Positions 8,234 to 23,589 of a DNA stretch of 64,000 bases are shown in pieces; position 1 is the stretch's first letter, and every line of letters starts with the position of its first letter. Both the position numbers and the translations under genes were made by a program. The notes under the pieces were generated by a model, which worked only from the letters and a program-made list of their open reading frames with translations, did no database searches and was not told the DNA's origin. The DNA lies in contig NZ_CAKAKB010000003.1 of NCBI RefSeq assembly GCF_916618755.1, forward strand, positions 1,054,001 through 1,118,000, read 5' to 3'. The stretch comes from Actinotalea sp. Marseille-Q4924. GTDB taxonomy: Bacteria; Actinomycetota; Actinomycetes; Actinomycetales; Cellulomonadaceae.

Positions 8234-8262
8234 GGGTGGATGAGCCGGCCTGTACGCCGGGT
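8234..8262. repeat. left attachment-site repeat (partial rnpB 3' end)
   Basis: The copy reads gggtggatgag, then c, then cggcctgtacgccgggt. It differs from the right copy only at the central position (c here, t at right). In RNase P RNA this position falls in the P1 helix; the variant would change a U-A pair to a U-G wobble. Confidence 0.8.
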
Positions 8263-8318
8263 ACAGCGCGAACCCCTCCTGACCAGCAACGATACGCGCT
8301 GGGGGGCTGCACGGGGGC

Positions 8319-9371
8319 TCAGGAAGTCGGGGACTGTCCCTGGGTGTCGAGGAAACGCAGCCACACTGGGTCGACGTCCTGCGCCTTCGTCACGAAGAGG
8401 ATGACGTCTGCCTTCAGCTCGTTGCCGCGGACCAGCGCCCTCGCCACGCTCTGCAGGCCCCGCCCGGCGACGCGCTCGATGAGCGGCTGGAGGTTCGCCG
8501 TCTGGGTCGGCGACAGCAGCCCGACCCGCTGACCGTCGAGCCGAACCTCGACAACCGAGACCGTCGACCGTGGGCGCTGCTCCGTCACCGCATGCAGGGT
8601 GACCGCTACGGGAACGTCGCGGCCGCGGGCATAGGCCGTGAGCACGTCCATGTGGCGGTCCTCCTGCGTGACCTGGATCTGACCGCCCCGGGGCAACACC
8701 ACGTACGGCTCCGTCGGCAGCGAGTTCACGGGCCAGACGCCGTCCCGCGGCGGCATGTAGAGGGTGACACGTGCGTGCACCCTGTCCCCGGCATCCCGTG
8801 CCCAGGCGCGGGCGTCGACCACCATGCTCTGGTTCCGGCCCGCAAGGTCACTGACGACCGGATGCCAGGTGCGCGCCTTGTCGCGGTCCAGGTACCCGAC
8901 GTGCTGCTCCTTGACCCAGACCGCGACAGCGTTGCCGTCGTGCGGGTTCGCGGAGTCGTCCGACAGCACAGCGGGGACGTACTCCTCCGCGCCGCCGTCG
9001 CTGTTGAAAGCTGCGCCAGAGAAGATCCGCCGGAAGGCGTCCGGTCGGTACGCCTCACCGACGACCTCGACGCTCGTGTAGCCGGGCAACCAGGGCTCCA
9101 TGAACTGGCCCCGAGGCGGCGCGGGAGCGTACGACGACCGGTGGTCTCGGGAAGCAGCCGACCCTGCGGGCTGCCTAGCTCCTGGATTGGATCGCGCGGC
9201 CGCGGCCCTCGGCGCCTCGGTTCCGTTCGCCTGGGGTCGGACGGACTTCCACAGCCAGATCGCGCCGGCGACGGCGGCGACGGCGAGCAGGGGCCCCGCG
9301 TCACCGGCCGAGAGTAGAGCGATCGCAACCCCAGCGACGACAAGCCAGTAGATGGCCCCCAGACATCCCAT
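8319..9371 (-). CDS. membrane-anchored HIRAN-like domain protein
   Basis: This 350-residue protein has two hydrophobic N-terminal segments (about residues 5-22 and 25-42), a disordered linker, then a region around residues 95-200 containing DDSANPHDGNAVAVWV and HVGYLDRD. That is the sequence pattern of HIRAN domains, which bind DNA ends or stalled forks in other proteins. The C-terminal part (VRLDGQRVGLLSPTQT, VTKAQDVDPVWL) is unassigned. It is the gene closest to the left att site, so it is accessory cargo or phage defence/exclusion. Start ATG is at 9369-9371. Confidence 0.6.
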   Translation of the reverse strand: MGCLGAIYWLVVAGVAIALLSAGDAGPLLAVAAVAGAIWLWKSVRPQANGTEAPRAAAARSNPGARQPAGSAASRDHRSSYAPAPPRGQFMEPWLPGYTSVEVVGEAYRPDAFRRIFSGAAFNSDGGAEEYVPAVLSDDSANPHDGNAVAVWVKEQHVGYLDRDKARTWHPVVSDLAGRNQSMVVDARAWARDAGDRVHARVTLYMPPRDGVWPVNSLPTEPYVVLPRGGQIQVTQEDRHMDVLTAYARGRDVPVAVTLHAVTEQRPRSTVSVVEVRLDGQRVGLLSPTQTANLQPLIERVAGRGLQSVARALVRGNELKADVILFVTKAQDVDPVWLRFLDTQGQSPTS

Positions 9372-9447
9372 CGAGGCAACGTAGCGCGGTCGGTACCGGC
9401 AGCTCGGACCGCCGAGGCGATCGCACCCGATCGGCGCAGCGTGTGCG

Positions 9448-10569
9448 TCAGCCCAGTGGCAGCCGCACGACCCCGTCGGTGGCGTCCCGCATCCGCTCGT
9501 CGTCGTCCGGCCACAGGTGCCCGTACGTCCGCAGCGTCTCCGTGGCGTCCTTGTGACCGAGCCGGTGTGCAACCGCCACCGGGGACAGACCCTGGGAGAT
9601 GAGCAGGGACGCGTGGAAGTGGCGCAGCTCGTGCCAGCCGGAGCGCACGCTGAGGCCCATGGGGCGGGCGGCGTGCCGCCACGCCTCCGACGCCCGCTCA
9701 CGGTTCACCGCGCCACCGCGGGCGCCGCGGACCACGAGCCCCTCCCCCGGTTCTCCGAGGTCGTCGACGGTGGCCTTGCCGATGCTGATGACCCGCCGTG
9801 ACGACGTTGTCTTGAGCGGCCCCCACGCGGGCGCGGCGGCGGATCCGCCGACGAGCTGCCGGTCCACGCGAACCTGGGCGGAAGCCCCGTCCGGGGCGAT
9901 CGCGACCCGGTCCCAGGTGAGGCCGCGCAGCTCCCCCGATCGCATGCCGGTCGCGGCCGCGAGGACGGCCATCCGCCGGTACGGGGTCCAGAGGCGGTCG
10001 ACGAGCTCCTGCACCTGGGCGACGGTCAGCGGGATGACCGGCTCGCGGTCGACGGGCGGCAGGTTGATGCGCCGGCACGGGCTCGCGACGATGCGCCGCT
10101 CCTCCACGGCGAGGGAGAAGACACCGGCGAGGTAGACGTAGGCGACGCGGACAGTGGTCGGCGCCAAGTCGCGCGACCATGCGGTGACCGCGCGCTGCAC
10201 GACGCCGCGGTCGACGTCGGCGAGGGCGTACCCGCCGAGGGTCGGGAGGATCGTGTTCGTCAGGCGTCGGCGGGCGACGTCCAGGCTCGTGGCGCGCTGG
10301 TGGACCTGCTCGGCGAGCCACCGGTCGGCCATCTCGGCGACGGTGATGCGGCCGCGGTCCGGGGGCACGTAGGTCCCCGACCGCTGGGACACCCCGACGT
10401 GCTCCAGGTGCGCCTGGGCGGCGTCCTTCGTCGTGAACGACCGCCGCCGGCGCGTGCCGTCGGGTTCGTGCCAGACGGCCTGCCAGCGCATCCCGGTGCC
10501 GTACCGGTCGGTGCGGACCCGTCGCCCGGACGGGCCGGGGGTGGTCCAGCGGTCAGCGACGTGCGCCAT
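9448..10569 (-). CDS. int: tyrosine recombinase / phage integrase
   Basis: This 373-residue site-specific recombinase is presumed to insert and excise the element at the rnpB 3' end. An N-terminal arm-binding region (RYGTGMRWQAVWHEPDG) is followed by a SAM-like core-binding domain (about 75-160) and the catalytic domain. The active-site Arg is in ATGMRSGELRGLTWD; the His-x-x-Arg is in HELRHFHASLL; the late His is in RLGHKDATETLRTYGHLW, which carries the probable nucleophile Tyr. All catalytic positions are present, so it looks functional. Confidence 0.95.
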   Translation of the reverse strand: MAHVADRWTTPGPSGRRVRTDRYGTGMRWQAVWHEPDGTRRRRSFTTKDAAQAHLEHVGVSQRSGTYVPPDRGRITVAEMADRWLAEQVHQRATSLDVARRRLTNTILPTLGGYALADVDRGVVQRAVTAWSRDLAPTTVRVAYVYLAGVFSLAVEERRIVASPCRRINLPPVDREPVIPLTVAQVQELVDRLWTPYRRMAVLAAATGMRSGELRGLTWDRVAIAPDGASAQVRVDRQLVGGSAAAPAWGPLKTTSSRRVISIGKATVDDLGEPGEGLVVRGARGGAVNRERASEAWRHAARPMGLSVRSGWHELRHFHASLLISQGLSPVAVAHRLGHKDATETLRTYGHLWPDDDERMRDATDGVVRLPLG

Positions 10570-10572
10570 CGC

Positions 10573-11181
10573 TCATCCGATCTTGTTCCAGACGCCGCAC
10601 TTGTTCTCGAAGTCCTGGCCGGGCGACAGCGTCACTGTCGGGAAGCCGCCCTCGGGTCCGTCGTTGTCGACGATGTCGCTGCCGTTCGTGCCCGATCGGA
10701 GGATCGCCCAGTAGCAGTACCCCGTGAGTTCGTTCGCGACCCGGTACGTCCCCGGCTCGATGTGGTCGCCAACCGTCCAGTACCCGTTCCGGATCTGTGT
10801 GGCCGCGACCCTCTTCTCCTCCGCGCCGACAGCGGCTTCGCGCGCCTCCAGATCGGCCTGGATAGCGTCGAGCTCCGCATCGCGGTTGATCGCTGCGATC
10901 TCGCGCTCGGCGACCTCCGCCAGTGCCTGTCGGGCGGTCTCACGGGTGTCGCGCACTTCGTCCTCGGCGGCCGCGACCTTGCTGAGCGCCTCGTCGCGCT
11001 CGGCCTCGACCGCCGCATACTGAGAGGACTGCGTCGGGTCGGCGGAGAACGCTGCGGCGCCGATGCCGAGGCCGACTGCTACACCCACCACCCCAGCTAC
11101 CGCCGCTGGTACCAACCATCGGGGACGGCTGCGGCGCGAGGGTGCTGCGTCGGGTGCGCTCACCGTGGGCTCAGCGGACAT
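10573..11181 (-). CDS. membrane-anchored coiled-coil protein, possible superinfection exclusion factor
   Basis: This 202-residue protein has one TM segment (WLVPAAVAGVVGVAVGLGIG, about residues 21-40), a long charged coiled coil (about 55-130), and a C-terminal domain with NGYWTVGDHIEPGTYR, a CYW motif and the closing CGVWNKIG. Two cysteines could pair outside the cell. This C-terminal module recurs in secreted actinobacterial and prophage proteins (recall). The position beside int and the repressor suggests a lysogenic surface function, but this is inference. The ATG at 11179-11181 has GGGGAG upstream. Confidence 0.55.
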   Translation of the reverse strand: MSAEPTVSAPDAAPSRRSRPRWLVPAAVAGVVGVAVGLGIGAAAFSADPTQSSQYAAVEAERDEALSKVAAAEDEVRDTRETARQALAEVAEREIAAINRDAELDAIQADLEAREAAVGAEEKRVAATQIRNGYWTVGDHIEPGTYRVANELTGYCYWAILRSGTNGSDIVDNDGPEGGFPTVTLSPGQDFENKCGVWNKIG

Positions 11182-11398
11182 CGTTGGCTCCCCTGCTGTC
11201 ATGTAAGCCGCCAAGGCGGCGGACTGTCGCCGGGGCGTAGGCCGCCGCGGCGGGCTGATCCAACAACGCTGCCACGCGCTGGTAGTGCCGAACCGGGGTC
11301 ACGCCGAAGGTCACCCGGATGGCGGCCTCCTTCGTGCCGGCGTACCGCCAGTGCTGTCCTTCGAAGTCCAGGACGGCGCGGTCGGCGTCGGTCAGCAT
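11171..11398 (-). CDS. DUF3263 family protein (75 aa)
   Basis: The sequence MLTDADRAVLDFEGQHWRY followed by GTKEAAIRVTFGVTPVRHYQRV matches the DUF3263 signature, a small helical protein common in actinobacteria and their phages. It looks helix-turn-helix-like and is often considered DNA-binding. It overlaps the upstream metalloprotease gene by 7 bp and the downstream membrane protein gene by 11 bp, so the three are translated together. Confidence 0.8.
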   Translation of the reverse strand: MLTDADRAVLDFEGQHWRYAGTKEAAIRVTFGVTPVRHYQRVAALLDQPAAAAYAPATVRRLGGLHDSRGANDVR

Positions 11399-11805
11399 GT
11401 GTGCTCCAGCTCCTCGTTGAGGGCCACGATGCGGGCCCGCTCGACGTCGGTGAGCCCGTCCAGGCGGGCCAGGAGGGTCGGTTCGTCCACCCACAGGCAC
11501 TCGGCGACCTCCTGGAGCTCGTCCGCCCACCTCAGGGCGTCCAGGAGGTCCTCGATGTGCACCAGCCACCGAGCGGCCATGAGTGTCGCCTGGCGCTCCT
11601 CGCTGCTCGAGCACCCGTCGACGTGTCCCATCTCCACGTGCGCCAGCTCGTGAGCGAGGGTGCACCGCCGTTGCACCTGCGACAGGGACGGGCGGAGGAC
11701 GATGACCTCGGCGCCGTCCGTCGCGCCGGAGCGGGCCCCGCGGAGCTGCCGCCAGAAGACCTCGAGGTCGGGTCGCGCTCTCAGGCGCCCCCAGGGATGG
11801 AACAT
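11392..11805 (-). CDS. ImmA/IrrE-type metallopeptidase
   Basis: This 137-residue protein has the zinc motif HELAHVEMGH and a downstream acidic helix (SSEERQATLMAARWLV) that supplies the third ligand in ImmA/IrrE proteases. In phages and ICEs these proteases cleave the cognate XRE repressor to trigger induction. Here an XRE repressor gene lies 1.6 kb upstream in the same transcription direction. The start at 11803-11805 was chosen because the extension upstream is weak. Confidence 0.8.
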   Translation of the reverse strand: MFHPWGRLRARPDLEVFWRQLRGARSGATDGAEVIVLRPSLSQVQRRCTLAHELAHVEMGHVDGCSSSEERQATLMAARWLVHIEDLLDALRWADELQEVAECLWVDEPTLLARLDGLTDVERARIVALNEELEHTC

Positions 11806-11985
11806 GCCGGGACCGTACGAGCCAGCACCGACACGCCTCACCCGGTCACCGCCGGGCAGACCGCTACGCAGATGTGCAACTATGAACCAAGCGGCCCCGT
11901 GAGGAGCCTGCCAGGATGACCCGCGTTGCTGCCAGCGCTGCCCGCGAGGGATCGGTCCCTGGAGGCCCCTGACGGGGCCGCTCTC

Positions 11986-12843
11986 CTAGTACCGGCTAGT
12001 GCACGTTGCACATGGCCACCACGGCATCCCCTTCGCCCAAGCGCTGTCCGGACGCGCCTGGAGTCCAAGCGTGACGACGCACTCCTCCGAGCGCCTGATC
12101 TGATGCCAGGTGCTGACGAGGTGCGCACCGTCGACATCGCCCCACTTGCTTGGCCAGAAGGCCGCCTTGAGGAAGCCCGCATACACGTCCGCGACCTGGC
12201 TCATCTCGTACCGCTGTGCGTCGATCCAGCGAAGGTCTGTCATGAGATCAAAGGGCGTACCAGGAGCGTCTTGGCTCCTCTTGATCTGGAAGTACCGGTG
12301 CGTGTCAGTGTGATCATGATGCTGCACGTGTCCAAAGTTGACCTGCACCTGCCGCGCCCCTCCCCGCCAGTGACGAGCCGCCCACAGGATCCGCTGCAAG
12401 GTGGCGTACGCCACCACGTTGTAGAAGCGCGTGACGTCGTCGCGGTAGGACCCGTCGTACAGCTGGTTCTTGTTCGCCACCACGTGCACGACCTGTAGGC
12501 CCGGGACTGCCCGTAGCACAGAGGCGGCCCGGAGGCGCCGGTCCTGGTTGGTCTTGATGTCTTCCTTCCACGAGAGCGGCCGCGAAGGAGGCGTGCCGAA
12601 GTCTGCGCGTAGGAGCTCGAGCGCTGCACGCGCTTCCTTCTCAGCGTTGTCGTCAACCAGGACCGCTGACATGCCGAAGATCGGGCTCGCTGACTCGCCG
12701 TTTCCACGGTCCCCGGTCTCGTCCACATAGGCCCTCAGAAGTGGCAGCTTGAGGGCCCAATCCACCTTCGGGAACTCGACGAGGGGAATCTGCGACGACA
12801 GGCGCCGATCGATGAGGCCACCGAAGAGGGCCTCGGGAGACAC
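11986..12843 (-). CDS. DUF3800 domain protein (RNase H-fold)
   Basis: This 285-residue protein contains AYVDETGDRGNG near residue 35, the first acidic motif of DUF3800, an RNase H-like family often found in prophages and defence loci. Other blocks include NKNQLYDGSYRDDVTRFYNV and QVADVYAGFLKAAFW, with a conserved internal Asp consistent with a nuclease fold. The GTG at 12841-12843 is preceded by GGGGGAG. Activity is unproven; phage-defence cargo is a reasonable guess. Confidence 0.75.
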   Translation of the reverse strand: MSPEALFGGLIDRRLSSQIPLVEFPKVDWALKLPLLRAYVDETGDRGNGESASPIFGMSAVLVDDNAEKEARAALELLRADFGTPPSRPLSWKEDIKTNQDRRLRAASVLRAVPGLQVVHVVANKNQLYDGSYRDDVTRFYNVVAYATLQRILWAARHWRGGARQVQVNFGHVQHHDHTDTHRYFQIKRSQDAPGTPFDLMTDLRWIDAQRYEMSQVADVYAGFLKAAFWPSKWGDVDGAHLVSTWHQIRRSEECVVTLGLQARPDSAWAKGMPWWPCATCTSRY

Positions 12844-12848
12844 GGGAC

Positions 12849-13415
12849 TTACTCCCCCGGCTCGTCCGGCCGTGCTGCTGCGGGCCGGGTGCCGGCGGCG
12901 ATGTCGTCGGCGATGCCGGCGCGGCGCCGGTGCGCGAGTGCGCGCGCCTTGTCGAGGCGCTCGTGGATCCTCGTACGGCCCACAGAGGTCGCGCATACGG
13001 AGACGTAGCGCTCGAGCACGCTGATCTCCGCGTCGTGATCGCCGAGCTTGCGGTCGATGATCGCGGCCTGCTCGGTGTACCAGGGCGCCGGCTCCCGGCC
13101 GTCCCGGTCTCGCTCGGCTGGGCTGATGCACTCTTCAAGGAGCCGGAGCGCCTCTTCGTAGCGCTCTTCACGCTTGAGCTCGCGCACGGTGTCCGGCCAC
13201 TCGGTGTAGTGCTTCCCGCGCACGAGACCGCGTCTCTCACGGTCGGCCTCTTCCCCGCCAGCGGCCAACCTGTCCAGCCGCAGCCGCTCCTTCCGTGCAG
13301 CGTTCTCCGCTCTGCGCTGCTCGCTTTGGGTCGCGTAGCCGGCGTCGCCTGGTCGGACTACCTCCGCCTGCGGCGTCCCGTCACGAGCACGGAGCAACCG
13401 GCGGAGGAAGCTCAC
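12849..13415 (-). CDS. hypothetical TPR-like protein
   Basis: This 188-residue highly charged protein starts MSFLRRLLRARDG. It has a helical repeat-like centre (HYTEWPDTVRELKREERYEE, ALRLLEECISP, APWYTEQAAIIDRKLGDHD) that resembles tetratricopeptide packing, and an Ala/Pro tail. It overlaps the upstream XRE gene by 4 bp and lies 5 bp before the DUF3800 gene, so it belongs to the same minus-strand lysogeny operon. Function is unknown. Confidence 0.6.
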   Translation of the reverse strand: MSFLRRLLRARDGTPQAEVVRPGDAGYATQSEQRRAENAARKERLRLDRLAAGGEEADRERRGLVRGKHYTEWPDTVRELKREERYEEALRLLEECISPAERDRDGREPAPWYTEQAAIIDRKLGDHDAEISVLERYVSVCATSVGRTRIHERLDKARALAHRRRAGIADDIAAGTRPAAARPDEPGE

Positions 13416-13918
13416 GAGTCCTCCCCCTCCGTCGCATCCGACGTATCGCGCCGGGCGGCGCTTGGGACCTCATCGGCCGCGATCTGGTCGGCCTTGAGGC
13501 TTCGGCGCCGGTGCGCGAGCTCGTCCGCAACGTCAACACCTGGGCCTGCGGGTGCGGTGACCTCAGCGGCGTGACGCTCGGTCATGGGGGCGGACTGGTG
13601 TCCATCACGGCTCCTCTGGCCATGCAGGCGTGAGCGGAGCAGCTCTAGGAGCTCCTCGTCCGTCAGGTCCTGCGGGTCGTTGATGAGGACCTTGGCCTTG
13701 GCCTCCTCTGGGGTGAGGAAGCCGGCCGCGACGAACGCCTCGAGCACCGGTCGGCCGTAGGCGCGGGCGAACCGCGCTGCCGGGCCGGGGTCGACGCCCT
13801 GCTTGCCGCTGCGCCAGCGGGAGACCGTCGGTCCGGAGACACCGGCCGCCTGGGCGATGTCGCCCTGAGCCGCTCCGGAGCTGACGCGCTCCACGTACTG
13901 CCACCAGGTCATGGCCAT
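13412..13918 (-). CDS. XRE-family repressor (probable lysogeny regulator)
   Basis: This 168-residue protein has an N-terminal helix-turn-helix: QGDIAQAAGVSGPTVSRWRS (about residues 18-37). A helical linker and a disordered C-terminal tail follow. It is transcribed divergently from the early block across a region with four or five TTGCGTT-type sites, the layout of a CI/Cro switch. The nearby ImmA-like protease gives a plausible inactivation route. The ATG at 13916-13918 has GGTGGGAG upstream. Confidence 0.8.
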   Translation of the reverse strand: MAMTWWQYVERVSSGAAQGDIAQAAGVSGPTVSRWRSGKQGVDPGPAARFARAYGRPVLEAFVAAGFLTPEEAKAKVLINDPQDLTDEELLELLRSRLHGQRSRDGHQSAPMTERHAAEVTAPAGPGVDVADELAHRRRSLKADQIAADEVPSAARRDTSDATEGEDS

Positions 13919-13963
13919 GACGCTCCCACCTCTGACGGGCCCGTTCCCCCGTTCGATCCATCT

Positions 13964-14148: not shown

Positions 14149-14163
14149 CAGGAAGGAGGACGG

Positions 14164-14403
14164 ATGGTCGCCACGCTCCGACTCCGAACCGAGCAGCTCG
14201 GGAAGTACCGCACACTCGCCGGGCTCACCACGGACGCGTCCCTGGCAGAGCGCATGCAGGTCGACCCCGCCACCGTCTCCCGCGTCCTGCGCGGCCACCA
14301 GGCCCCCGGGCCCCGCTTCATCGCCGCGCTCGTCGACGCGTTCCCCGGCATGGACCTCGACGACCTGTTCGAGGTCGTCCCCAGCGAGAAGGTCCCGGCC
14401 TGA
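14164..14403 (+). CDS. Cro/XRE-like HTH protein (79 aa)
   Basis: This small protein has the HTH segment SLAERMQVDPATVSRVLRGH (about residues 26-45). It is the first gene of the rightward block and has an excellent ribosome site, AGGAAGGAGGA. It likely acts as the Cro-type counterpart of the divergent repressor. The stop overlaps the next start (TGATG). Confidence 0.8.
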   Translation: MVATLRLRTEQLGKYRTLAGLTTDASLAERMQVDPATVSRVLRGHQAPGPRFIAALVDAFPGMDLDDLFEVVPSEKVPA

Positions 14404-14606
14404 TGGGCGACCTCACCGTCCACGAGGTCGCCGCCCAGCTCGGCGAGCACCCCGAGACCGTCCGCACCCTCATCCGCCGCGGGGACCTGGTCGCCCGCAA
14501 GGCCGGGCTCGGTGGGCGCACGTCGCCGTACCGGATCCGGCAGGCCGCCGTCGACGAGTTCGTCGCCCGACGCGAGGCCCTCACCCGGTCCGGCCGCACC
14601 GCCTGA
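14403..14606 (+). CDS. excisionase/MerR-type HTH protein (67 aa)
   Basis: The 67-residue sequence begins MGDLTVHEVAAQLGEHPETV and continues RTLIRRGDLVARKAG, then YRIRQAAVDEFVARR. This is the winged HTH_17 layout of excisionases and small DNA-binding phage proteins. It starts in the stop of the upstream HTH gene. It is a candidate directionality factor for the integrase, although excision activity is not shown. Confidence 0.7.
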   Translation: MGDLTVHEVAAQLGEHPETVRTLIRRGDLVARKAGLGGRTSPYRIRQAAVDEFVARREALTRSGRTA

Positions 14607-16042: not shown

Positions 16043-16122
16043 CCGGCCTCCTCATCTGCCTCCTGCTCGCCGCCGGCATCGCCTGGGCGTGCGACACGTA
16101 CCGGAAGGGACACCGCCCGTGA
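16039..16122 (+). CDS. 27-aa single-TM micro-protein
   Basis: A GTG at 16039 opens a 27-residue ORF, with LLICLLLAAGIAWA as a single membrane helix and a basic tail (YRKGHRP). Both ends overlap neighbours in the GTGA pattern seen throughout this cassette, which is the main support for translation. Function is unknown. Confidence 0.45.
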   Translation: MTGLLICLLLAAGIAWACDTYRKGHRP

Positions 16123-16499
16123 CCACCACCGACCACACCGACGACGTCGTCGACGACGCTCGCACCGACGAGCAGATCGAGCTCGAGGCCCTCGCCCTGG
16201 AGGACGTCAAGCTCGCCGACGAGGCCGAGGCGATCGCCGAGCGCCGCGAGCAGATCCGCGCCCGCCTCCTCGCCCTGCACCCCGGCACCGGCTCCATCCC
16301 CGCCGGGCCCTACAAGGTGACCGTCCGCACCGGTGCCCGCCGCCTGGACCCGGCGAAGGTCGCCGAGGCGTACCCGGTCGTCGAGCACCCCGAGCTGTAC
16401 AAGCCCGCGATCGATACGGCAGCGGTCAAGCACCACCTGGCGCCGGCCGAGCTCGAGCGGTACCAGACCGTCGGTAAGCCCACGGTCGTGATCGCGTGA
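16119..16499 (+). CDS. phage early protein, coiled coil plus DNA-metabolism-like C-terminus (126 aa)
   Basis: The N-terminal half is an acidic coiled coil (LADEAEAIAERREQIRARLL). The C-terminal half reads IPAGPYKVTVRTGARRLDP, then AYPVVEHPELYKPAIDTAAV, then HHLAPAELERY. The overall plan loosely recalls siphovirus Gp157-type proteins that travel with recombination nucleases. It sits two genes before the RecB-like nuclease. Exact role is unknown. Confidence 0.6.
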   Translation: MTTTDHTDDVVDDARTDEQIELEALALEDVKLADEAEAIAERREQIRARLLALHPGTGSIPAGPYKVTVRTGARRLDPAKVAEAYPVVEHPELYKPAIDTAAVKHHLAPAELERYQTVGKPTVVIA

Positions 16500-16927
16500 A
16501 GACGTGCACCGTGGCCGACTGCGGCCGGGACACCACCAAGGGCACCGGCGGCCTGTGCGGGATGCACACCCAGCGCATGAAGCGCACCGGCACCCTCGGC
16601 CCCGCCGGGTACCTCCGCGACCCGGCGCGTTCGATGGAGCAGCGCGTCTTCGCCCAGCTCGTCGAGCAGGCCGACACCGGCTGCTGGCTCTGGCAGGGCG
16701 CCCTGCGCAACGGCTACGGCGCCATCGGCGAGGGCCAGGCGGTCGTCTACGTGCACCGGTGGGTCTACGAGCACCTCGTCGCGGATATCCCCGACGGCCT
16801 CGTCATCGACCACCTGTGCCTCAACCGGCCGTGTGCGAACCCCGAGCACCTCGAGCCGGTCACCCGCGACGTGAACAACGCCCGCGGCGGGCACGAGCAC
16901 GGCGCCCGGAAGGCAGCGACGGCATGA
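16496..16927 (+). CDS. HNH homing-type endonuclease
   Basis: This 143-residue protein has an N-terminal Cys/His cluster (CTVADCGRDTTKGTGGLCGM) and the HNH core HRWVYEHLVADIPDG, then VIDHLCLNRPCANPEHLEPV and the closing Asn-rich motif TRDVNNARGG. GCWLWQGALRNGYG precedes the core, as in phage HNH proteins. It overlaps the preceding stop (GTGA) and the next start (ATGA). It may be a free-standing homing enzyme or a phage DNA-processing nuclease. Confidence 0.85.
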   Translation: MKTCTVADCGRDTTKGTGGLCGMHTQRMKRTGTLGPAGYLRDPARSMEQRVFAQLVEQADTGCWLWQGALRNGYGAIGEGQAVVYVHRWVYEHLVADIPDGLVIDHLCLNRPCANPEHLEPVTRDVNNARGGHEHGARKAATA

Positions 16928-17787
16928 CGCTCATGACCGACCTCGGCCCGTCGGCCAGCTACGTCGGCGGCCACGCGACCGACGCGCTGCGGGACATCCG
17001 CGCGCTGATCGAGCACGCCATCACCAACCACCCCCGGTCGCTGCAGAGGCGCATCGGCCCGTCGGAGATCGGCAACCCGTGCGATCACTGCCTGGCGGCG
17101 AAGTTGGCGGGCTGGCAGCAGGTCGACGAACGGTCGGTGCCGTGGCTGCCGACGGTCGGCACCGCGGTGCACGCGTGGCTCGAGGAGCAGGTGATCCGCC
17201 ACGAGGTCGACCGGATCGGCAACCTCTCCGACCCGGGCCGGCGGTACCTGTGCGAGCAGGCCGTCATGGTCGGCACGATCGCCGGACAGGACATCTGGGG
17301 CTCCACCGACCTCGTCGACGTCCACACCGGAACGATCATCGACTACAAGATCGTCGGTCTCACCACCCTCAAGAAGGCCAAGGCCGGGCCCTCCCCGGAG
17401 TACCGCGCCCAGGCACACCTGTACGCGAAGGGGTGGAACGACGCCGGCGTCCGCGTCGACCACGTCGCCATCGCTTACCTGCCCCGCAACGCCATGTCCC
17501 TCGACGACGGGCTCTGGTGGCACGAACCCCACGACCGCTCGATCGCCGAGGCCGCGCTCGAGCGCGCGAACCGGCTCGCCACCAACCTCACCGCCCTCAC
17601 CGCGCTCGGCCCCGACGCCGTCGCCGCATGGATCCGGCAGCTCGCCCGCCACGACGGCTGCTGGGACTGCTCCCGCTACCCCGACGGCGCCGGCATCACC
17701 CGGCCCGGTCACAGACCCCCGGCGGACACCCTCGCCGGGCTCATCCCCCCGACCGCTCCCGCGGCCGGGACCACCACCGCCGCGTGA
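16924..17787 (+). CDS. PD-(D/E)XK nuclease, RecB/Cas4-like
   Basis: This 287-residue protein has the nuclease core GSTDLVDVHTGTIIDYKIV (PD-D/ExK-type Asp and DYK), then a QAHLYAKGW motif typical of RecB-family exonucleases. Two Cys pairs, NPCDHCLAA (about residue 55) and GCWDCSRYP (about residue 250), flank the core as in iron-sulfur nucleases of the AddB/Cas4 type. No CRISPR genes are nearby, so it is probably a phage recombination exonuclease acting with the next gene. Confidence 0.8.
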   Translation: MTLMTDLGPSASYVGGHATDALRDIRALIEHAITNHPRSLQRRIGPSEIGNPCDHCLAAKLAGWQQVDERSVPWLPTVGTAVHAWLEEQVIRHEVDRIGNLSDPGRRYLCEQAVMVGTIAGQDIWGSTDLVDVHTGTIIDYKIVGLTTLKKAKAGPSPEYRAQAHLYAKGWNDAGVRVDHVAIAYLPRNAMSLDDGLWWHEPHDRSIAEAALERANRLATNLTALTALGPDAVAAWIRQLARHDGCWDCSRYPDGAGITRPGHRPPADTLAGLIPPTAPAAGTTTAA

Positions 17788-17812: not shown

Positions 17813-18478
17813 ATGACCACGCAGACCCCCAACGCCAACGACGTCCTCATGGGCGGCGGCGGCGCCCCGTCCTGGAAGTTCACCGAGCCCGGCACCACCC
17901 GCACCGGCGTCATCAAGGCCCCGCCGCAGGCCCACCAGGAGAAGGACTACGACCCGAACAACCCCGGCGGCGGGAAGCCCAAGTTCTACCCCTCCGGCGA
18001 CCCGATCATGGGCATCACCGTCGAGGTCCAGACCGACGACCGCGACCCCGGCATCGAGGACGACGACGGCGCCCGCACCTTCTGGATCGAGGGCCGCTAC
18101 CTCAAGGACGCCGTCCGCGCCGCCGTCCGCGCCGCCGGCGCCAACGGCCTGCAGGTCGGCGGGCGCATCACCGTGACGTTCACGCACCGCGAGGACCCCA
18201 TGGACAAGCGGTCCCGCAAGTACTGGGACGTCCAGTACGTCCCCGCGGGGAACGCCGCCCTCATGACCGGCGACGCCACCCCCGCGCCCGCACCGGCCCC
18301 GGCCGCACCGGCAGCGCAGGCGCCCGCGGCGGCGGCACCGGTCCCGGCTCCGCCCGGGGACACCCCCGCGGACAAGGCCCGCGCGCTCATCGCCGTCGGC
18401 CTCGACGACACCACCATCGGCGCCGCCGTCGGCTTGGACGCCTCGGTCGTCGCGATCATCCGCAGCTCCGCCGCCTGA
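17813..18478 (+). CDS. phage DNA-binding/recombination partner protein (221 aa)
   Basis: The first ~150 residues form a beta-rich domain (GAPSWKFTEPGTTRTGVIKA, QVGGRITVTFTHREDP, KYWDVQYVPAG). An Ala/Pro linker follows, then a C-terminal helical segment resembling a small HTH (VGLDDTTIGAAVGLDASVV). Proteins of this type follow RecB-like nucleases in many actinophages and are presumed ssDNA-binding (recall). It is 25 bp after the nuclease gene and certainly in the same operon. Confidence 0.65.
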   Translation: MTTQTPNANDVLMGGGGAPSWKFTEPGTTRTGVIKAPPQAHQEKDYDPNNPGGGKPKFYPSGDPIMGITVEVQTDDRDPGIEDDDGARTFWIEGRYLKDAVRAAVRAAGANGLQVGGRITVTFTHREDPMDKRSRKYWDVQYVPAGNAALMTGDATPAPAPAPAAPAAQAPAAAAPVPAPPGDTPADKARALIAVGLDDTTIGAAVGLDASVVAIIRSSAA

Positions 18479-18554
18479 CCGCGGCAGCCCTGCCCCGGGT
18501 GCGAGCCCGGGGCAGGGCACCACCACTGGACCCCAGCCGACCCCAGGAGGACCC

Positions 18555-18786: not shown

Positions 18787-18846
18787 GGGCAACTGCAGCC
18801 AGTGCTGCGGCTGCCCGCCGTCACCCAGGCGGCGACCGGGACCGTG

Positions 18847-19137
18847 ACACCGCCCGCCTACACCGGGGCCGCGACCTCCACGCTGCCCCCGCTGGTGCAG
18901 GGGGCAACCGGCGACACGACGCGCCCCACCGTCGCCGGGGACGCCACGACGGTCCTGCCGCTCCCCACCCAGATAGCCGCCGGGTCCGCGATCGACGCCT
19001 CCGCGTACCGCGACATCACCGTCACCTTCGGCGAGCTCACCGGGCACCCGCTTCAGGTGACCGACCTGCGCGGGCACCCGCTGCGAGTCACGAACCTGGA
19101 AGCACACCCGCTGACCGTCACGAACCTCAGGAGCTGA
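18847..19137 (+). CDS. repeat-containing phage protein, probably 5'-truncated
   Basis: The frame encodes degenerate ~12-residue Thr/Ala/Pro repeats (PAYTGAATSTLP, PLVQGATGDTTRP, TVAGDATTVLP), then three copies of a HPLxVTxLR motif at the C-terminus (HPLQVTDLRG, HPLRVTNLEA, HPLTVTNLRS). The same repeats run upstream of the GTG chosen here (PAVTQAATGTVTP), so the true N-terminus is probably missing. It fits a minor structural/tail protein of actinophages and ends just before another late-type gene. Confidence 0.5.
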   Translation, partial: TPPAYTGAATSTLPPLVQGATGDTTRPTVAGDATTVLPLPTQIAAGSAIDASAYRDITVTFGELTGHPLQVTDLRGHPLRVTNLEAHPLTVTNLRS

Positions 19138-19140
19138 CCC

Positions 19141-19425
19141 ATGGCCGGATCAGTCACCATCCCCCGCGGCGGCCGCGAGTACGTCACCGCCGACGTCGCC
19201 GGAGTCCCCGACGACGCGCCCCTTGAGGTGACCGTCGACCGGGCCACCTGGCTGGCCGCCGAGCGGCTCCCCGGCAAGCTCCGGTTCCTGGCCGCCGCGC
19301 CCGACGTCACCGGCAACCCCGCGAACACCGTCGTCGTCCCCCTCGGCCGCTCCGCCGTCCACGCCCGCCTGGCCGACAACCCCGAGATCGTCATCCGCGA
19401 CGTCGGCTACATCGACCTGAAGTGA
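19141..19425 (+). CDS. phage structural-type hypothetical protein (94 aa)
   Basis: This 94-residue beta-rich protein (TIPRGGREYVTADVAGVP, RFLAAAPDVTG, then RLADNPEIVIRDVGYIDLK) has the composition and length of small actinophage head/tail accessory proteins. It begins 3 bp after the preceding stop and is followed by an intrinsic terminator, so it is the last gene of the rightward block. Confidence 0.6.
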   Translation: MAGSVTIPRGGREYVTADVAGVPDDAPLEVTVDRATWLAAERLPGKLRFLAAAPDVTGNPANTVVVPLGRSAVHARLADNPEIVIRDVGYIDLK

Positions 19426-19534
19426 CCGAACACCTGGACGTGGCGCACGGGCGGGCCGCAAGACGTCGACGCGCCGGGCCGAGGTCGCACGGAGCCCGGT
19501 AGCACTCCGAGCGGAGTCCCGCCGCACGCCACCA

Positions 19535-19577
19535 GCCCCCGCCCGGCCCTCTTCGGCGGGTCGGGCGGGGCCTTCTT
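19535..19577 (+). terminator. intrinsic terminator of the rightward block
   Basis: The CCCCGCCCG arm (19537-19545) pairs with CGGGCGGGG (19562-19570), with an inner GCC/GGC extension, followed by CCTTCTTC. It lies 110 bp after the last phage-type gene. Confidence 0.7.
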
Positions 19578-19698
19578 CGTGTCGGAGTCCCGGGATCCCT
19601 CGTCCGCGATCGCGGCCCACGTTGACGGTGGGTGAACGTTGTGCGGCGAGATGCCTTTCACCCTTGCCGCTGACTCAGTCCCGCCCTAGCGTCGGCGG

Positions 19699-19806
19699 TG
19701 CTCGCACGGCAGCTGATCTCGCTGACCGGCTGCCGGTGGGAAGTCGCTCGGCCCACCGGGCGCTTATCGCCCCCGTCCGATCCCAGGATCGGACGGGGGC
19801 CTTTCT
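19699..19806 (+). ncRNA. structured RNA-like unit A
   Basis: A promoter-like TTGCCG-N17-TAGCGT (19664-19692) precedes the unit. It holds CGGCAG/CTGCCG pairing, an alternative CCGGTGGG/CCCACCGG stem (19733-19740 with 19752-19759), and a perfect 15-bp terminator stem (19769-19783 with 19786-19800) followed by CTTTCTT. No ORF fits. The block GCTCGC-CGGCAG is shared with unit C. Confidence 0.5.
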
Positions 19807-19836
19807 TCGTCCGCGCCGACGCACTACGTTGGAAGG

Positions 19837-19925
19837 CCCTCGTGGTGGAGGCCCTAGGCCTCTGTGCTGCCACGGGATAGGACCCCCGCCGGGCGTGTTT
19901 ACCTCGCGTTCGGCGGGGGTCGCTC
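19837..19925 (+). ncRNA. structured RNA-like unit B
   Basis: A TACGTT box (19825-19830) precedes the unit. It folds as CGTGG, then GAGGCC-CTA-GGCCTC, then GTGCTGCCACGGG, followed by a terminator stem GACCCCCGCCG (19881-19891) with CGGCGGGGGTC (19911-19921). The architecture is the same as unit C. Confidence 0.5.
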
Positions 19926-20013
19926 AGAGGGTCTTCGTGGCTGGAAGCTGGTCCCTGCATGGAGCGGGCGTCCGGACCGCTCCTGGCCGCGGAGAACCTG
20001 ATCACGCTAGGCT

Positions 20014-20108
20014 CGCGGCAGCCCGTGGAGAGGCAACTCATCGGCCTCACCTGCTGCCACGGGTCAGGCCCCCGTCGGACCCCTTGCCTACGCCGGCGGG
20101 GGCCACCT
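20014..20108 (+). ncRNA. structured RNA-like unit C
   Basis: A TAGGCT box (20008-20013) precedes the unit. It contains CGGCAG, then CCCGTGG-A-GAGGC, a 9-nt loop, GCCTC, CCTGCTG and CCACGGG, then a terminator-like stem GGCCCCCG (20067-20074) with CGGGGGCC (20097-20104). The segment CTGCTGCCACGGG closely matches unit B. Confidence 0.5.
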
Positions 20109-20188
20109 CACGTCGCCCCTGTTCCGCTTGAGGCGTCGCCCTGAACCCCTGACAGACCGGCGTTCCTCTGGTGCGGCCAAGGAAGCCC

Positions 20189-20419
20189 TCAGGCGTTCAC
20201 CGGTTCGTCGTCGAAGAGATTGACGCGGACAGCCACCGGCACGAGTCGTGCCGCCAGTGCGTTGAGAGACGCCGGGTCGAGGTCTGCTGGAAGGTTCAAC
20301 TCCACCCGAAGCCAGCCGAGCGGGCCTGGGCTTGCCGCTCTCACCAGCCCGCCCAGTGCAGCGAGCACAGCCGTGTCATCGCCGTTCAACGGAAGGATCT
20401 GCAGGGACAGCGGGGGCAT
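20189..20419 (-). CDS. hypothetical protein (76 aa)
   Basis: This 76-residue protein (MPPLSLQILPLNGDDTAVLA, then GWLRVELNLPADLDP and RLVPVAVRVNLFDDEP) has alternating strands and helices and no recognised family. A GAAAGG ribosome site precedes the ATG. It stands between the RNA-like units and the EAL gene inside the element. Confidence 0.5.
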   Translation of the reverse strand: MPPLSLQILPLNGDDTAVLAALGGLVRAASPGPLGWLRVELNLPADLDPASLNALAARLVPVAVRVNLFDDEPVNA

Positions 20420-20817
20420 CGTTGGCCTTTCGGTCTGGGTGCAACTCCTCTTCGGCCCTGTCGGCTCGGGGATGAGTGCTCACGGCCTCGGTTCACCCGA
20501 CCGTGCCGTGCGTTAGCCAGTACCGGTCGCCCTGTCTGGCCCCGAGAACCCCAACCAGACGAGCGTCCTATTCGGTTGATTCAACGCACTAACCACATCT
20601 CGGGCAGTTGAACCGTCTAGTTTAGCCCTCGGCGGCGTCCACCGGCTGGGCGGCGGTGTCCCAATTTGCGCCATTGCTGCCCCGTCGTCACAGGCGCAAT
20701 TCCGGACAGTTCGTCACCTGTACGCATTTTCACCCGTTAGAGACTCGCGGAATGCGCTATTGGCGGCAACGATCGGCTTGTCAAAGGTCACTTGACTGGC
20801 TGGCGAGGGAGTTCACC
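20420..20817. other. 398-bp AT-richer gap with no confident gene
   Basis: I see no supported gene here. The sequence is clearly less GC-rich than the chromosome (for example around 20560-20640 and 20700-20770). It contains GTTGATTCAAC- and GTTGAACC-like half-sites at about 20575-20610 that could be promoter or operator elements for the EAL gene. It is probably foreign DNA. Confidence 0.4.
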
Positions 20818-22053
20818 GTGACAACCGATAGGCCCGACGGTGTTGCCGCGCTTGGACAGCCCACGCCAACGCTGCCACCTGGCGTAGCGCGGCTGAGCCA
20901 CTCGGTCCGAGCCATGCGTCGGGTGCCGACCTGGCGCTGGACAGTGATGATCGCGTCACTTCTCGCACTGATCTGGCTCCTCGTCGCAGCGACAGGAGGA
21001 ACGCGTACAGCGCTTCCGCACCTCTTCTACCTACCGATCCTCCTAGCCGTCGGCGCCTGCGGGGCGCGCGGCGGCCTGGCGGCCGCCGCTGTGTCCGCCC
21101 TGCTCGCCGGTCCATTCATGCCAGGTGACCCTCAGGTGCTCGTGTTTTGGATGATCCGAGGCGGCATGTTCGCGCTGGTCGCCCTCGCGATGGCGGCAGC
21201 CCTGACAGCGCAGGAAGCGCATCTTCGTGACCAGGTGCGAAAGGACCTCACACGCGCCCTGGACCTCGAGCCCCGTCCAGCTGACCCCGAGGATGCCGAG
21301 CTGACCGAGCAGGTGCCCAAGGCGCTGCAGCGTCGCGAGTACGACATCGTGTTCCAGCCGATCTACTCACTGCAGGACGGACAGATCGACGCCATCGAGG
21401 CGCTCACCCGGTTCCGGCTGCAGCCGTACCGGTCGCCGGACAGGTGGTTCTCCGCTGCAGACGCCGTCGGCCTGGGTACCGAGCTCCAGCTTGCGGTACT
21501 GGAGTCTGCCCTCACGGCCGCACGGGCCGCCCCGAGCAACGTCGCGGTGGCTCTGAACGTCTCAGCAGCCACGCTTGCGGACCCCGGCTTGCCGGCCGTC
21601 CTCGCGGGACACGCGCGTCAGGTGATCCTCGAGCTCACCGAGCACGACGTGATCGGCAACTACGCCTTCCTGCAGGAACGCCTCAAGCCGCTACGCGAGA
21701 GCGGGGTGCAGATCGCCGTGGACGATGCCGGCGCCGGCGCGGCGAGCTTCCGGCACATCGTCCAGCTCCGACCCGACATGATCAAACTCGACGCCTCCCT
21801 CACGCAAGGGGTCCGCGACAGCCAGGTTCTGCAGACACTCGGCCGGTCGTTCGTCTCCTTCGCGCACGACACCGGCTCGCTGCTAGTCGTGGAAGGCATT
21901 GAGAACCACGACGACCTCACCCAGTGGGCGACACTTGGCGCGGACTGCGCCCAGGGTTACCTCCTCGCGCGCCCAGCGTCGATCGGGTCCCTGCGGTTGG
22001 CCGGCACAACCGGCACCACGGCGACGGGGATCCCCACCCAGCGTCGACGCTGA
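20818..22053 (+). CDS. membrane EAL-domain protein, putative c-di-GMP phosphodiesterase
   Basis: This 411-residue protein has about four TM segments (residues 40-130), a short linker and a C-terminal EAL domain (about 155-395). EAL residues are seen in AIEALTRFR, ALNVSA (Asn), VILELTEHD (Glu), IAVDDAGAG (loop-6 Asp-Asp), MIKLDASL (Lys), VVEGIEN (Glu) and CAQGYLLARP (Gln). The catalytic set is therefore complete, although DDFGTG is replaced by DDAGAG. The GTG at 20818 with GAGGGAG upstream was chosen. It is cargo of the element, paired with a GGDEF gene. Confidence 0.85.
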   Translation: MTTDRPDGVAALGQPTPTLPPGVARLSHSVRAMRRVPTWRWTVMIASLLALIWLLVAATGGTRTALPHLFYLPILLAVGACGARGGLAAAAVSALLAGPFMPGDPQVLVFWMIRGGMFALVALAMAAALTAQEAHLRDQVRKDLTRALDLEPRPADPEDAELTEQVPKALQRREYDIVFQPIYSLQDGQIDAIEALTRFRLQPYRSPDRWFSAADAVGLGTELQLAVLESALTAARAAPSNVAVALNVSAATLADPGLPAVLAGHARQVILELTEHDVIGNYAFLQERLKPLRESGVQIAVDDAGAGAASFRHIVQLRPDMIKLDASLTQGVRDSQVLQTLGRSFVSFAHDTGSLLVVEGIENHDDLTQWATLGADCAQGYLLARPASIGSLRLAGTTGTTATGIPTQRRR

Positions 22054-22112
22054 TCGCCGGCGGCCAACCCCCGGGTGTCAGCGATGTCCGCGCCCGGGTG
22101 CACCATGGCCCC

Positions 22113-22361
22113 ATGCAGCTCGCGCCCGCCCCCGCCTACGCCGGCTGGGTCGTCAACCACGGCGACCCCGACGGCAAGGTCCGCATGCTCGAGCAGCCCC
22201 GGCGGGCCGTCGTCGACGCCCACACCTACGGCGGGCACCAGGTGCGCCTGCAGCTGTTCGTCATCGCCACCGCGCCAGGGTGGGTGTGCGTCGAGCAGGA
22301 CCTCGCCGAGCGGGCGCCGTGGCGGGCGTGGGTGCCGTCCAGGACGGCGACGCCGGTGTGA
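22113..22361 (+). CDS. hypothetical protein (82 aa)
   Basis: This 82-residue Trp-containing soluble protein (YAGWVVNHGDPDGKVRMLE, RLQLFVIATAPGWVCVEQDL) follows the EAL gene by 59 bp. An in-frame ATG at 22104 is equally possible. No family is recognised, and the composition is typical of actinophage small proteins. Confidence 0.45.
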   Translation: MQLAPAPAYAGWVVNHGDPDGKVRMLEQPRRAVVDAHTYGGHQVRLQLFVIATAPGWVCVEQDLAERAPWRAWVPSRTATPV

Positions 22362-22399
22362 GCCCCCGGGCGCAGAACCGTCGCCGGCTCGCGATTCTC

Positions 22400-23371
22400 T
22401 CAGTGACGTCGAGGGATGAGTGATCGTCGTGGCGCGATGGATCGACGCTTCTTGGCGGCGTAGAGCTTCGCGTCAGCGCGCGCGATGACGTCTTGCAGGG
22501 CCTCGCCGTGCCACTGCGCCACCCCGTAGGTCCACGGCGCGTCGCTCAGCGTGCGGAGACGGTCGAACACGGTGTGTGCCCGGCGTTCGTCGAGACCGGG
22601 AAGGAGGAGCGCGAACTCGTCGCCGCCGAGGCGCCCGACCGCGTCCTCAGCCCTCAGAGCACCGCGAACGGCGGTCACCAGGTCGACCAGCACCTCGTCG
22701 CCGGCCGCGTGGCCGCCTTCATCGTTGACGCGCTTGAAGTCGTCGAGGTCCATCAGCCCGATCACCAGTGGCGACCCGGACCTCCGCGACCGCGCAATCT
22801 CGGTAGCGGCGACTTCCAGGAACCGGCGTCTTGACAGAGCGCCCGTGAGGGGGTCCTCGGCGGCGTCAGCGCGCAGGGTGTCTACGTTCTCGTTCAGGAC
22901 CCAGGCGACGCCGAAGACGGTGGCCATGACGAAGACCATCGACTGGACCGGGGACATCGCTGCGGCCTCCCACAGTCCCAGTGCCAGTGCACCGCCGATG
23001 GCCGTCAGGTGCGCCAGCATCACTCGTCTGCTGTGGAAGACGGCGCTGTAGGCGGCGACCCATGCGAACGCAACGGTCGTCACACCGGTGCCGGTCGGTG
23101 TGGTGGAGGCGCCCACGGCGGTACCGATCAGCGTGGTCGCAAGGAGCAGCACCAGGTGCGGCACGACCACGGGGCAACGTCGACGAACCCTCCACAACGA
23201 CACCCCGAGCACGGCCCCCGCCACCCCCATGGCGCCAGTCAGTACCCGTGGAGCGGTGCTGCTGAACGGCACGGCCACCAAGAAGGCACAGACGAGCGCG
23301 GTCGCGAGACAGGCCTTCGCCAGCGTCGCGACCTCGCTCGCGTGCGCGTGGTGTCTCAGGGCCGTGGTCAT
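22400..23371 (-). CDS. membrane GGDEF-domain diguanylate cyclase
   Basis: This 323-residue protein has six hydrophobic segments over about the first 145 residues and then a GGDEF domain. The signature RLGGDEFALLL is intact, and an I-site Arg-x-x-Asp (RAED) lies exactly five residues before it. MDLDDFKRVND supplies the metal-binding Asp. It should therefore make c-di-GMP with product inhibition. It is the rightmost gene of the element, 190 bp from the right att site. A TTG three codons upstream is an alternative start. Confidence 0.9.
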   Translation of the reverse strand: MTTALRHHAHASEVATLAKACLATALVCAFLVAVPFSSTAPRVLTGAMGVAGAVLGVSLWRVRRRCPVVVPHLVLLLATTLIGTAVGASTTPTGTGVTTVAFAWVAAYSAVFHSRRVMLAHLTAIGGALALGLWEAAAMSPVQSMVFVMATVFGVAWVLNENVDTLRADAAEDPLTGALSRRRFLEVAATEIARSRRSGSPLVIGLMDLDDFKRVNDEGGHAAGDEVLVDLVTAVRGALRAEDAVGRLGGDEFALLLPGLDERRAHTVFDRLRTLSDAPWTYGVAQWHGEALQDVIARADAKLYAAKKRRSIAPRRSLIPRRH

Positions 23372-23560
23372 GGTGATCAAATCATCGGCCCTGGGACCGC
23401 CCCGTTGAGCGATCGACGCGCCTACCCCTCGGGGGCTCCTCGGGGGCTCCGCGCAACCGCCAGTGACTGTAAGTGCTGGTCAGCGGTTCGACCCCGGCGG
23501 CCCCCGAAAGACCCTCTGGGGGCCTCTCCGGAGGTAAGTCTGCAGGTCAGAGTCCCCGAA

Positions 23561-23589
23561 GGGTGGATGAGTCGGCCTGTACGCCGGGT
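23561..23589. repeat. right attachment-site repeat (rnpB 3' end)
   Basis: The 29 bp match the left repeat except for t instead of c at position 12. They include the 3' strand of the RNase P P1 helix, so the element itself supplies the rnpB 3' end after integration. Confidence 0.8.

Follow-up and report, generated by a model that had tools for sequence, protein, structure and literature searches.

A phage-derived element at the 3' end of the RNase P RNA gene of Actinotalea sp. Marseille-Q4924

Introduction

Prophages and islands located at the 3' ends of tRNA and tmRNA genes are characterized by a tyrosine integrase, insertion that restores the target gene, a short block of identity with the target, arm sites in the phage attachment site (attP), and tandem insertions. 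Insertion at these 3' ends is standard (PMC12424338; PMC10654092): 33.8% of islands are assigned to tRNA or tmRNA genes (PMC12424338), and 16 of 23 tyrosine-integrase sites in M. abscessus are at tRNA or tmRNA genes (PMC10654092). Here, we have analyzed a stretch of 64,000 nucleotides of Actinotalea sp. Marseille-Q4924 (contig NZ_CAKAKB010000003.1, positions 1,054,001 to 1,118,000; hereafter the window, with positions counted from its first letter), in which an element at 8234-23589 occupies the 3' end of rnpB, the gene for RNase P RNA. Like those at tRNA and tmRNA genes, the element encodes a tyrosine integrase, has a short block of identity with its target and putative arm sites, and restores the structural RNA gene at whose 3' end it is inserted; it differs in its target. 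We hold with high confidence that it is phage-derived and was inserted by its own tyrosine integrase into the rnpB 3' end, a recurrent actinobacterial site; it most likely represents a deleted prophage.

Results

The element is bracketed by two 29-bp repeats (Table 1), which match at 28 of 29 positions and correspond to the rnpB 3' end, as had been proposed in an earlier reading of this DNA made without database searches (the sequence-only reading). The distance from repeat start to repeat start is 15,327 bp. When the variable base was left free, the 29-bp sequence was found exactly twice in the whole 3.64-Mb genome, as compared to a chance expectation of about 4e-7 copies estimated from base composition. 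The right copy consists of the last 26 nt of rnpB as modelled and 3 further bases. The gene itself, a class A RNase P RNA (Rfam RF00010), is intact, as the same reading had claimed: the match covers model positions 1-367 of 367, and after insertion it still scores 286.9 bits as compared to 287.3 and 284.8 bits in the two relatives G004 and G013, in which the site is empty.

These two were among 18 other genomes of the genus used for comparison. In both, homologues of the left-flank genes at 7867-8163, 6577-7662, and 5946-6539 follow directly past rnpB, a homologue of the gene at 24039, presumably encoding a YaaA-like protein, occupies the other side, and the rnpB-end pattern is present in one copy, so that the empty site anticipated by the sequence-only reading is found in both relatives. 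When the window flanks were joined in a script, the resulting sequence could be aligned across the junction with G013 over 3684 columns (80%); the alignment with G004 consisted of two pieces of 2854 and 953 columns (77% and 80%). In the other 16 genomes, the stretch fetched downstream of rnpB contained no homologue of a left-flank gene.

The earlier claim of a terminator hairpin just outside the left repeat holds in part. A perfect 22-nt palindrome is located there; however, direct reading of the sequence revealed no T-run after it in the sense of rnpB, and a terminator role is therefore unproven. The empty site had been expected to extend to this hairpin: rnpB and left flank are indeed continuous in G004 and G013, but both carry a different hairpin-forming sequence at its place. 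A second hairpin near 23500 was considered as an element-borne terminator and dropped for the window, because it lacks a T-run in the rnpB sense and its sequence resembles the arm-site repeats described below.

The rnpB sites of G005 and G009 hold other elements, with repeats matching at 31/31 and 29/30 positions located 16.3 and 3.6 kb apart, respectively, and with integrases 39.6% and 40.9% identical to that of the window; they are independent insertions at rnpB within the same genus. A family scan of 221 genomes with the genus-type pattern gave 20 matching genomes, and two copies were found only in the genome of the window (G000), G005, and G009. Downstream of rnpB in G017, G015, and G010 (loci L027, L024, and L033), inspection by eye revealed TGACCTGC-like motifs 14-31 bp past the core and no second core; these motifs are possibly scars of lost elements. 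Furthermore, an unusual base in the rnpB end is common to G017 and G009 and may have come from a phage.

A complete tyrosine integrase of 373 amino acids, which had been placed 1.2 kb inside the element, is indeed encoded 1.19 kb from the left repeat. R210, K253, H313, R316, H339, and Y349 are invariant across eight aligned integrases including that of the window, providing a full R, K, H, R, H, Y set that we take to be the catalytic residues. The locus combines direct-repeat attachment sites flanking an integrase, an empty site, and the full set of catalytic residues, features expected of an integrative element of the tyrosine-integrase type.

The integrases of Arthrobacter phages TripleJ (NC_049470) and Kukla (PQ362669) are 47% identical to that of the window over 99%. 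Both phages carry an rnpB-like 3' end on the same strand just past the integrase gene, 19 bp past the frame in TripleJ, and the 25-nt TripleJ core is identical to the rnpB 3' end of G378, a genome of the same order. They differ from the window element in being complete phage genome records of 45.5 and 46.7 kb, and in having neither GCWGGTCA nor TGACCWGC (the inner motifs described below) beside the core. Among ten viral contigs encoding a related integrase, seven (L050-L056) contained the core, which is located 58, 55, and 29 bp past the integrase frame in L050, L051, and L052, respectively; L048 and L049 stop at the integrase stop codon, and L057 lacks a core. Two further viral contigs, L040 and L041, encode integrases of only 29% and 27% identity on long, unsure tree branches and have a core at ≤100 bp from the integrase frame. 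Both named Cellulomonas contigs found with a related integrase contain cores, two in L046 and three in L047. The latter lie in a row at 9155, 10682, and 11943; together with adjacent integrase fragments, they appear to form a tandem array that has decayed.

A profile search of 396 genomes of the order yielded 36 integrase matches in 34 genomes at E ≤ 1e-60, and 30 loci were fetched with 1.5-kb flanks where the contig allowed. An rnpB core with ≤2 substitutions was present in all 11 best fetched loci and in none of the 19 weaker ones. The core is at most about 100 bp away from the integrase frame, the exceptions being the window (1.2 kb) and L062 (0.8 kb). The second integrase match of G408 also has a core, and that of G579 is 123 bp from one by coordinates alone; the core check covered all matches but four of the 36 (G328:C5, G294, G381, and G458). 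In a sample of 396 genomes of the phylum, four had a match at E ≤ 1e-85, including the genome of the window, and in G692 rnpB lies 70 bp from the integrase gene.

Several database records with an rnpB end were rejected as attP evidence: in the faecal 'phage' records MT836823 and MT835553 the match lies in complete rnpB genes, and two of three plasmid records inspected, NZ_CP108665.1 and OY726028.1, contain a complete rnpB. These two, a Phocaeicola record of 21 kb (L126, rnpB at 2995-3362) and a Streptomyces globisporus record of 1 Mb (L125, rnpB at 2999-3408), would represent either second copies of the gene or misfiled contigs. The third, the circular 12-kb plasmid pNKL of Streptomyces noursei has an intergenic piece similar to the rnpB 3' end (L124, 4731-4759); it was not used as evidence because it is a short piece only and the plasmid has no annotated integrase.

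The duplicated rnpB end, which is what is directly seen in the window, might in principle have arisen by segmental duplication of the gene end, and the repeats would then not be attachment sites. This is contradicted by the clean empty sites of G004 and G013, and it also conflicts with the phage integrase inside, the same core beside the integrase in phage genomes, and the arm sites at fixed distances; we regard it as extremely improbable.

The integrases at rnpB belong to two classes of opposite polarity. Class A, the window type, has the core on the same strand as the integrase gene, which is located at the end distant from rnpB. Elements of this class span 54.8 kb in G094, 42.0 kb in G466, and 20.3 kb in G259; in three genomes, 20-55 kb separate the cores and the integrase is at the far one, whereas a fourth is divided between contigs. 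In class B (G005, G009, G499, G233, G253, G371, G408, and G438), the integrase gene is on the rnpB side and points at rnpB, the integrase match ending 67-88 bp from the rnpB match in the six genomes measured. A quick maximum-likelihood tree of 42 integrases placed class A in one starred branch, which includes the viral contig L057, and class B in one branch with a support of 89, not starred. An approximately unbiased (AU) test was carried out with 12 class A sequences (L048 and L049, with contigs ending before any core, were placed by similarity) and eight class B sequences. Classes A and B held as one clade were rejected (P = 0.0009) and class A alone was not (P = 0.54) in this test, which is post hoc and shares the long-branch risk of the quick tree. 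Judged from these sequences, actinobacterial phage integrases of two or more lineages have repeatedly used the rnpB 3' end as their attachment site.

The attP of the window type would have consisted of tandem arm sites 11 bp apart, the inner motif GCWGGTCA, the rnpB core, TGACCWGC, and a second arm pair. Its core would have been a copy of the last ~25 nt of rnpB; recombination would have split the bacterial attachment site (attB), regenerating a complete rnpB at one end and leaving the duplicate at the opposite end. All of these parts are still present in the window: the distal end has the near arm pair and one inner motif, and the rnpB end has the far pair and the second inner motif (Table 1).

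Table 1. Features of the element and of its attachment sites.
Feature	Position	Strand	Evidence
rnpB, class A RNase P RNA, integration target	23564..23950	-	cmscan, 286.9 bits; sole RF00010 match in genome
rnpB-side attachment core (rnpB 3' end)	23561..23589	-	repeat comparison, genome search
Distal attachment core, 28/29 copy of rnpB 3' end	8234..8262	-	repeat comparison, genome search
Perfect 22-nt palindrome in displaced host flank; putative terminator without T-run	8207..8228	-	sequence read directly
Inner motif GCWGGTCA, start 25 bp before core	8280..8287	-	same distance in G094, G466, L050, L051, L052
Inner motif TGACCWGC, 15 bases past 25-nt core, inverted partner of 8280-8287	23542..23549	-	motif comparison
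Putative near arm-type site 1, AGCCCCC in rnpB sense	8302..8308	-	motif comparison
Putative near arm-type site 2, 11 bp from site 1	8313..8319	-	motif comparison
Putative far arm-type site 1, AGCCCCC in rnpB sense	23442..23448	-	motif comparison
Putative far arm-type site 2	23431..23437	-	motif comparison
Tyrosine integrase, 373 aa	9448..10569	-	PF00589 5.6e-14; PHROG integrase 2.2e-58
HIRAN-domain gene between integrase and attachment site	8319..9101	-	PF08797 8.3e-8
Small phage protein	11171..11398	-	phrog_5316 7.4e-24
ImmA/IrrE-like metalloprotease	11392..11805	-	PF06114; phrog_87 1.9e-20; 41-47% to G466 and G582
DUF3800 gene	11986..12843	-	PF12686 1.4e-6 on longer frame 11986-13131
Phage-type repressor	13412..13918	-	PHROG transcriptional regulator/repressor families, down to 7.1e-24
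Cro-like HTH protein, divergent from repressor	14164..14403	+	phrog_3642 1.8e-27; 77% to G094
HTH_17 protein, excisionase candidate	14403..14606	+	PF12728 3.5e-11; PHROG excisionase 6.4e-7; 64% to G582
RecE-like, weak	16119..16499	+	phrog_434 4.6e-4; 36% over 86 aa to G466
HNH endonuclease	16496..16927	+	PF13392 6.1e-12; phrog_826 7.2e-33
Phage exonuclease (PD-(D/E)XK)	16924..17787	+	phrog_1674 1e-63; 56% to G466
Phage early protein	17813..18478	+	phrog_1911 2.5e-41; 38% to G466
EAL-domain (c-di-GMP phosphodiesterase-like) gene, start uncertain	20656..22053	+	PF00563 1.8e-49
GGDEF-domain gene, start uncertain	22400..23380	-	PF00990 1.6e-28

Arm-site positions are given in the rnpB sense relative to the core. 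Near arm pairs were present in the class A members compared. At -57/-46 the pair reads AGCCCCC in the window, G094, and L051, AGCGAAC in G466, and AGCACCC in L050; at -59/-48 it reads TGCCCAT in TripleJ and AGCGCCC in G259. A second pair in the same direct orientation was found about 117-135 bp past the core in the window, G094, L050, and TripleJ. TripleJ resembles the window in having tandem arm pairs 11 bp apart on both sides and differs in the arm sequence, TGCCCAT instead of AGCCCCC. The far sites form an imperfect, nearer pair in G466 and occur in four copies in G259; L051 and L052 have no exact far pair.

Inner motifs were found in most of the class A members compared. GCWGGTCA starts at -25 in 6 of 12 sequences (the window, G094, G466, L050, L051, and L052) and at -26 in G009, and is not at the expected place in G005, G259, L041, L042, and L043. 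TGACCWGC follows 13-15 bases past the core in 10 of 18 sequences (the window, G094, G466, G005, G009, L050, L041, L064, L065, and L066), is not at the expected place in G259, L042, L043, L051, L052 (one mismatch there), L063, L067, and L068, and is absent from the 220 nt past rnpB in both empty sites. With the W position free, the inner motif is found in the window at 0.48 per kb.

Both sides were fetched for the class B elements of G005 and G009. They have far arm copies upstream of the distal core, and G009 shows a clear near arm pair on the rnpB side, which is the integrase side; the six other class B elements, represented by one side only, mostly have similar arm pairs as judged by eye. 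Hence, the attP layout appears to be preserved relative to the integrase, with the rnpB core in reversed orientation. Arm and inner sites presumably bind the integrase, and their presence at both ends of the window element makes excision by the integrase and the HTH_17 excisionase candidate plausible.

The attachment sites also bear on the possibility that two tandem elements are present, the EAL/GGDEF part beside rnpB being an older, separate insertion. Tandem rnpB insertions are seen in L047 and G408, and an EAL homologue (50%) is located 3.3 kb from rnpB in G015. However, this genome contains no third exact core. The arm sequence AGCCCCC is shared by the near pair at 8302-8319 and the far pair at 23431-23448, which lies beyond the GGDEF gene, so that both ends are compatible with a single attP. 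Since the GGDEF gene is located 50 bp inward of this far pair, the EAL and GGDEF genes belong to the same integrated unit; a composite of two elements is improbable.

The 25 open reading frames (ORFs) called in the element were compared with PHROGs in 23 cases and with Pfam in the case of the EAL and GGDEF genes; genes in the compared elements were called by a simple codon-score script. Identity to genes of related prophages amounts to 49-78% for the integrase, 41-47% for the protease, 77% for the Cro-like protein, 38% for the repressor, 46-64% for the HTH_17 protein, 56% for the exonuclease, and 36-38% for two early proteins. None of the 25 ORFs was assigned to the terminase, portal, capsid, or tail genes that a complete prophage would have, and the Pfam matches of the ORFs scanned included no relaxase or transfer gene of the kind that an integrative conjugative element would carry. 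The element retains the lysogeny and early-recombination cassette of related prophages and has most likely lost the late genes; it carries HIRAN, DUF3800, EAL, and GGDEF genes.

The rnpB prophages of G094 (54.8 kb) and G466 (42.0 kb) are similar to the window element in the integrase (63-68%), its orientation, the inner motifs, and the lysogeny and early genes, but differ in having head and tail genes, none of which was recognised in the window element. Eight proteins were scanned in these two prophages: portal, major head, and tape measure were identified in both, and the terminase large subunit in G094 (it was not among the G466 proteins scanned).

The same gene content could also be that of a helper-dependent satellite resembling a phage-inducible chromosomal island (PICI), that is, a compact island with integrase, excisionase, and repressor that takes particles from a helper phage and is not a decayed prophage. 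The size of 15.3 kb, the intact-looking integration and repressor cassette, and the lack of recognised structural genes are consistent with a satellite, as are other short elements at rnpB, namely the 9.75-kb island of G408, with terminase, portal, head, and head-closure genes and no tail match in 12 ORFs, and the 16.3-kb element of G005, with terminase, portal, and head genes. Yet counterparts of the early genes of the window element are found in prophages in the same order that have structural genes, which is what a deleted prophage would show. Furthermore, no packaging-interference gene was recognised; the only match to a terminase small subunit is weak (0.0054) and secondary, one of several weaker PHROG matches of the HTH_17 protein to other HTH families. 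A satellite is thus possible but rather unlikely, and a deleted prophage remains the most likely identity.

Several observations weigh against the interpretation as a phage-derived element at a recurrent rnpB site. The two cores in the window differ at one base; at this position both empty relatives carry the base of the rnpB-side copy, and the deviating base was therefore either brought in by the element or arose later by mutation of the distal copy. In TripleJ, Kukla, and G259, no inner motifs are located where they would be expected. The viral contig L057, with an integrase 42% identical, has no core, and relatives of the class B integrase in G829 and G744 of the phylum sample are not near rnpB; similarity of the integrase alone does not ensure the target. 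Several ORFs of the element have no family match in Pfam or PHROGs. No structural genes were recognised, which makes autonomous movement between cells doubtful, and for excision and a circular form we rely on inference.

The EAL and GGDEF genes at 20656-23380 represent c-di-GMP turnover genes within a phage-derived element. The EAL gene is the only match to its family in this genome at E ≤ 1e-60. It was rejected as rnpB-specific cargo: 18 of 19 same-genus genomes, including its own, have matches at E ≤ 1e-60, and by coordinates only that of the window and one in G015 are located near rnpB. A search of phage records with the EAL query gave 39 matches, none covering more than 80% of the query length, with 25.7-30.4% identity in the best 10 of 39. 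Our claim for this gene is limited to its presence inside the element.

Additionally, rnpB holds insertions elsewhere. In G408 (L118/L119, G408:C1:76838-96367), two tandem copies of 9,752 bp with 0 differences are located at rnpB; their identity is possibly an assembly effect. Each copy, with 12 called ORFs, encodes a class B integrase, an excisionase-like protein, terminase, portal, head morphogenesis, major head, and head closure proteins, without a tail match. A hairpin with a T-run was observed directly after the restored rnpB end. This island is similar to the capsid-forming phage satellites (cf-PICI) in its integrase, excisionase-like, terminase, portal, head, and head-closure genes and the missing tail match among the 12 called ORFs; the window element differs from cf-PICI in that no capsid or terminase gene was recognised, and its integrase is of the other class than that of G408. 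Four proteins scanned in the G005 element gave terminase, portal, head, and a weak tape-measure match. L120 (908-10580, G499) is a class B element of 9.65 kb at rnpB encoding an AAA/RecA-like protein; two other scanned proteins had no match.

When the 396 genomes of the order were scanned with a pattern independent of the integrase, 145 contained the rnpB end, ten of them in two to three copies; since the pattern fits only part of the rnpB variants, 10/145 is not a rate for the order. The reversed control pattern gave 0 matches. The ten genomes are G021, G094, G140, G165, G179, G355, G408, G455, G499, and G501, with copies on different contigs in G179 and G501; a second copy of the rnpB end alone is not proof of integration, and G000 is not counted, its distal copy differing at one flanking base. 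The short segment between the copies holds remains of a class B integrase in G140 and G021, and none of ten integrase queries matched between the copies in G355, G455, and G165. In the latter genome (L113, G165:C1:1514765-1528103), 13.3 kb between two rnpB ends encode a 2185-aa RHS-repeat protein and a 1083-aa lectin-like protein, and none of the queried integrases.

Discussion

The sequence-only reading had called rnpB an uncommon target. It is indeed an unusual docking site for phages, although one used repeatedly in this order; the general principle of insertion at the 3' ends of RNA genes is already known. An attachment site in rnpB was not found in the available portions of PMC2705793, PMC12884075, PMC10654092, PMC12424338, PMC10111431, and PMC4383910. 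A literature search returned no report of rnpB as an attachment site among the matches listed, and an earlier report is possible. Judged from the categories in PMC12424338, tools that sort integration sites into tRNA/tmRNA, protein-coding, and intergenic classes would likely file islands at rnpB as intergenic.

If not already in print, the RNase P RNA gene joins the structural RNA genes used as docking sites by phages. The integrases described here would provide a set with predictable attB sites for actinobacterial vectors; rnpB gave one match in each of 32 genomes searched. Furthermore, two integrase classes with a similar arm layout and reversed core polarity offer a natural comparison.

We lean slightly towards a wider view, in which mobile DNA of actinobacteria would generally use the rnpB 3' end as a docking hub. 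Integrase lineages, at least two and possibly three or four in number, would have converged on it with opposite polarities and a similar attP layout, and it would serve complete phages, prophages, and capsid-coding satellites and permit tandem stacking. With each insertion, the terminal bases of rnpB come to be of phage origin; hence, within this view, phages would have a share in shaping the P1 helix of an essential ribozyme and would be under selection to fit its pairing, which is specific to the host.

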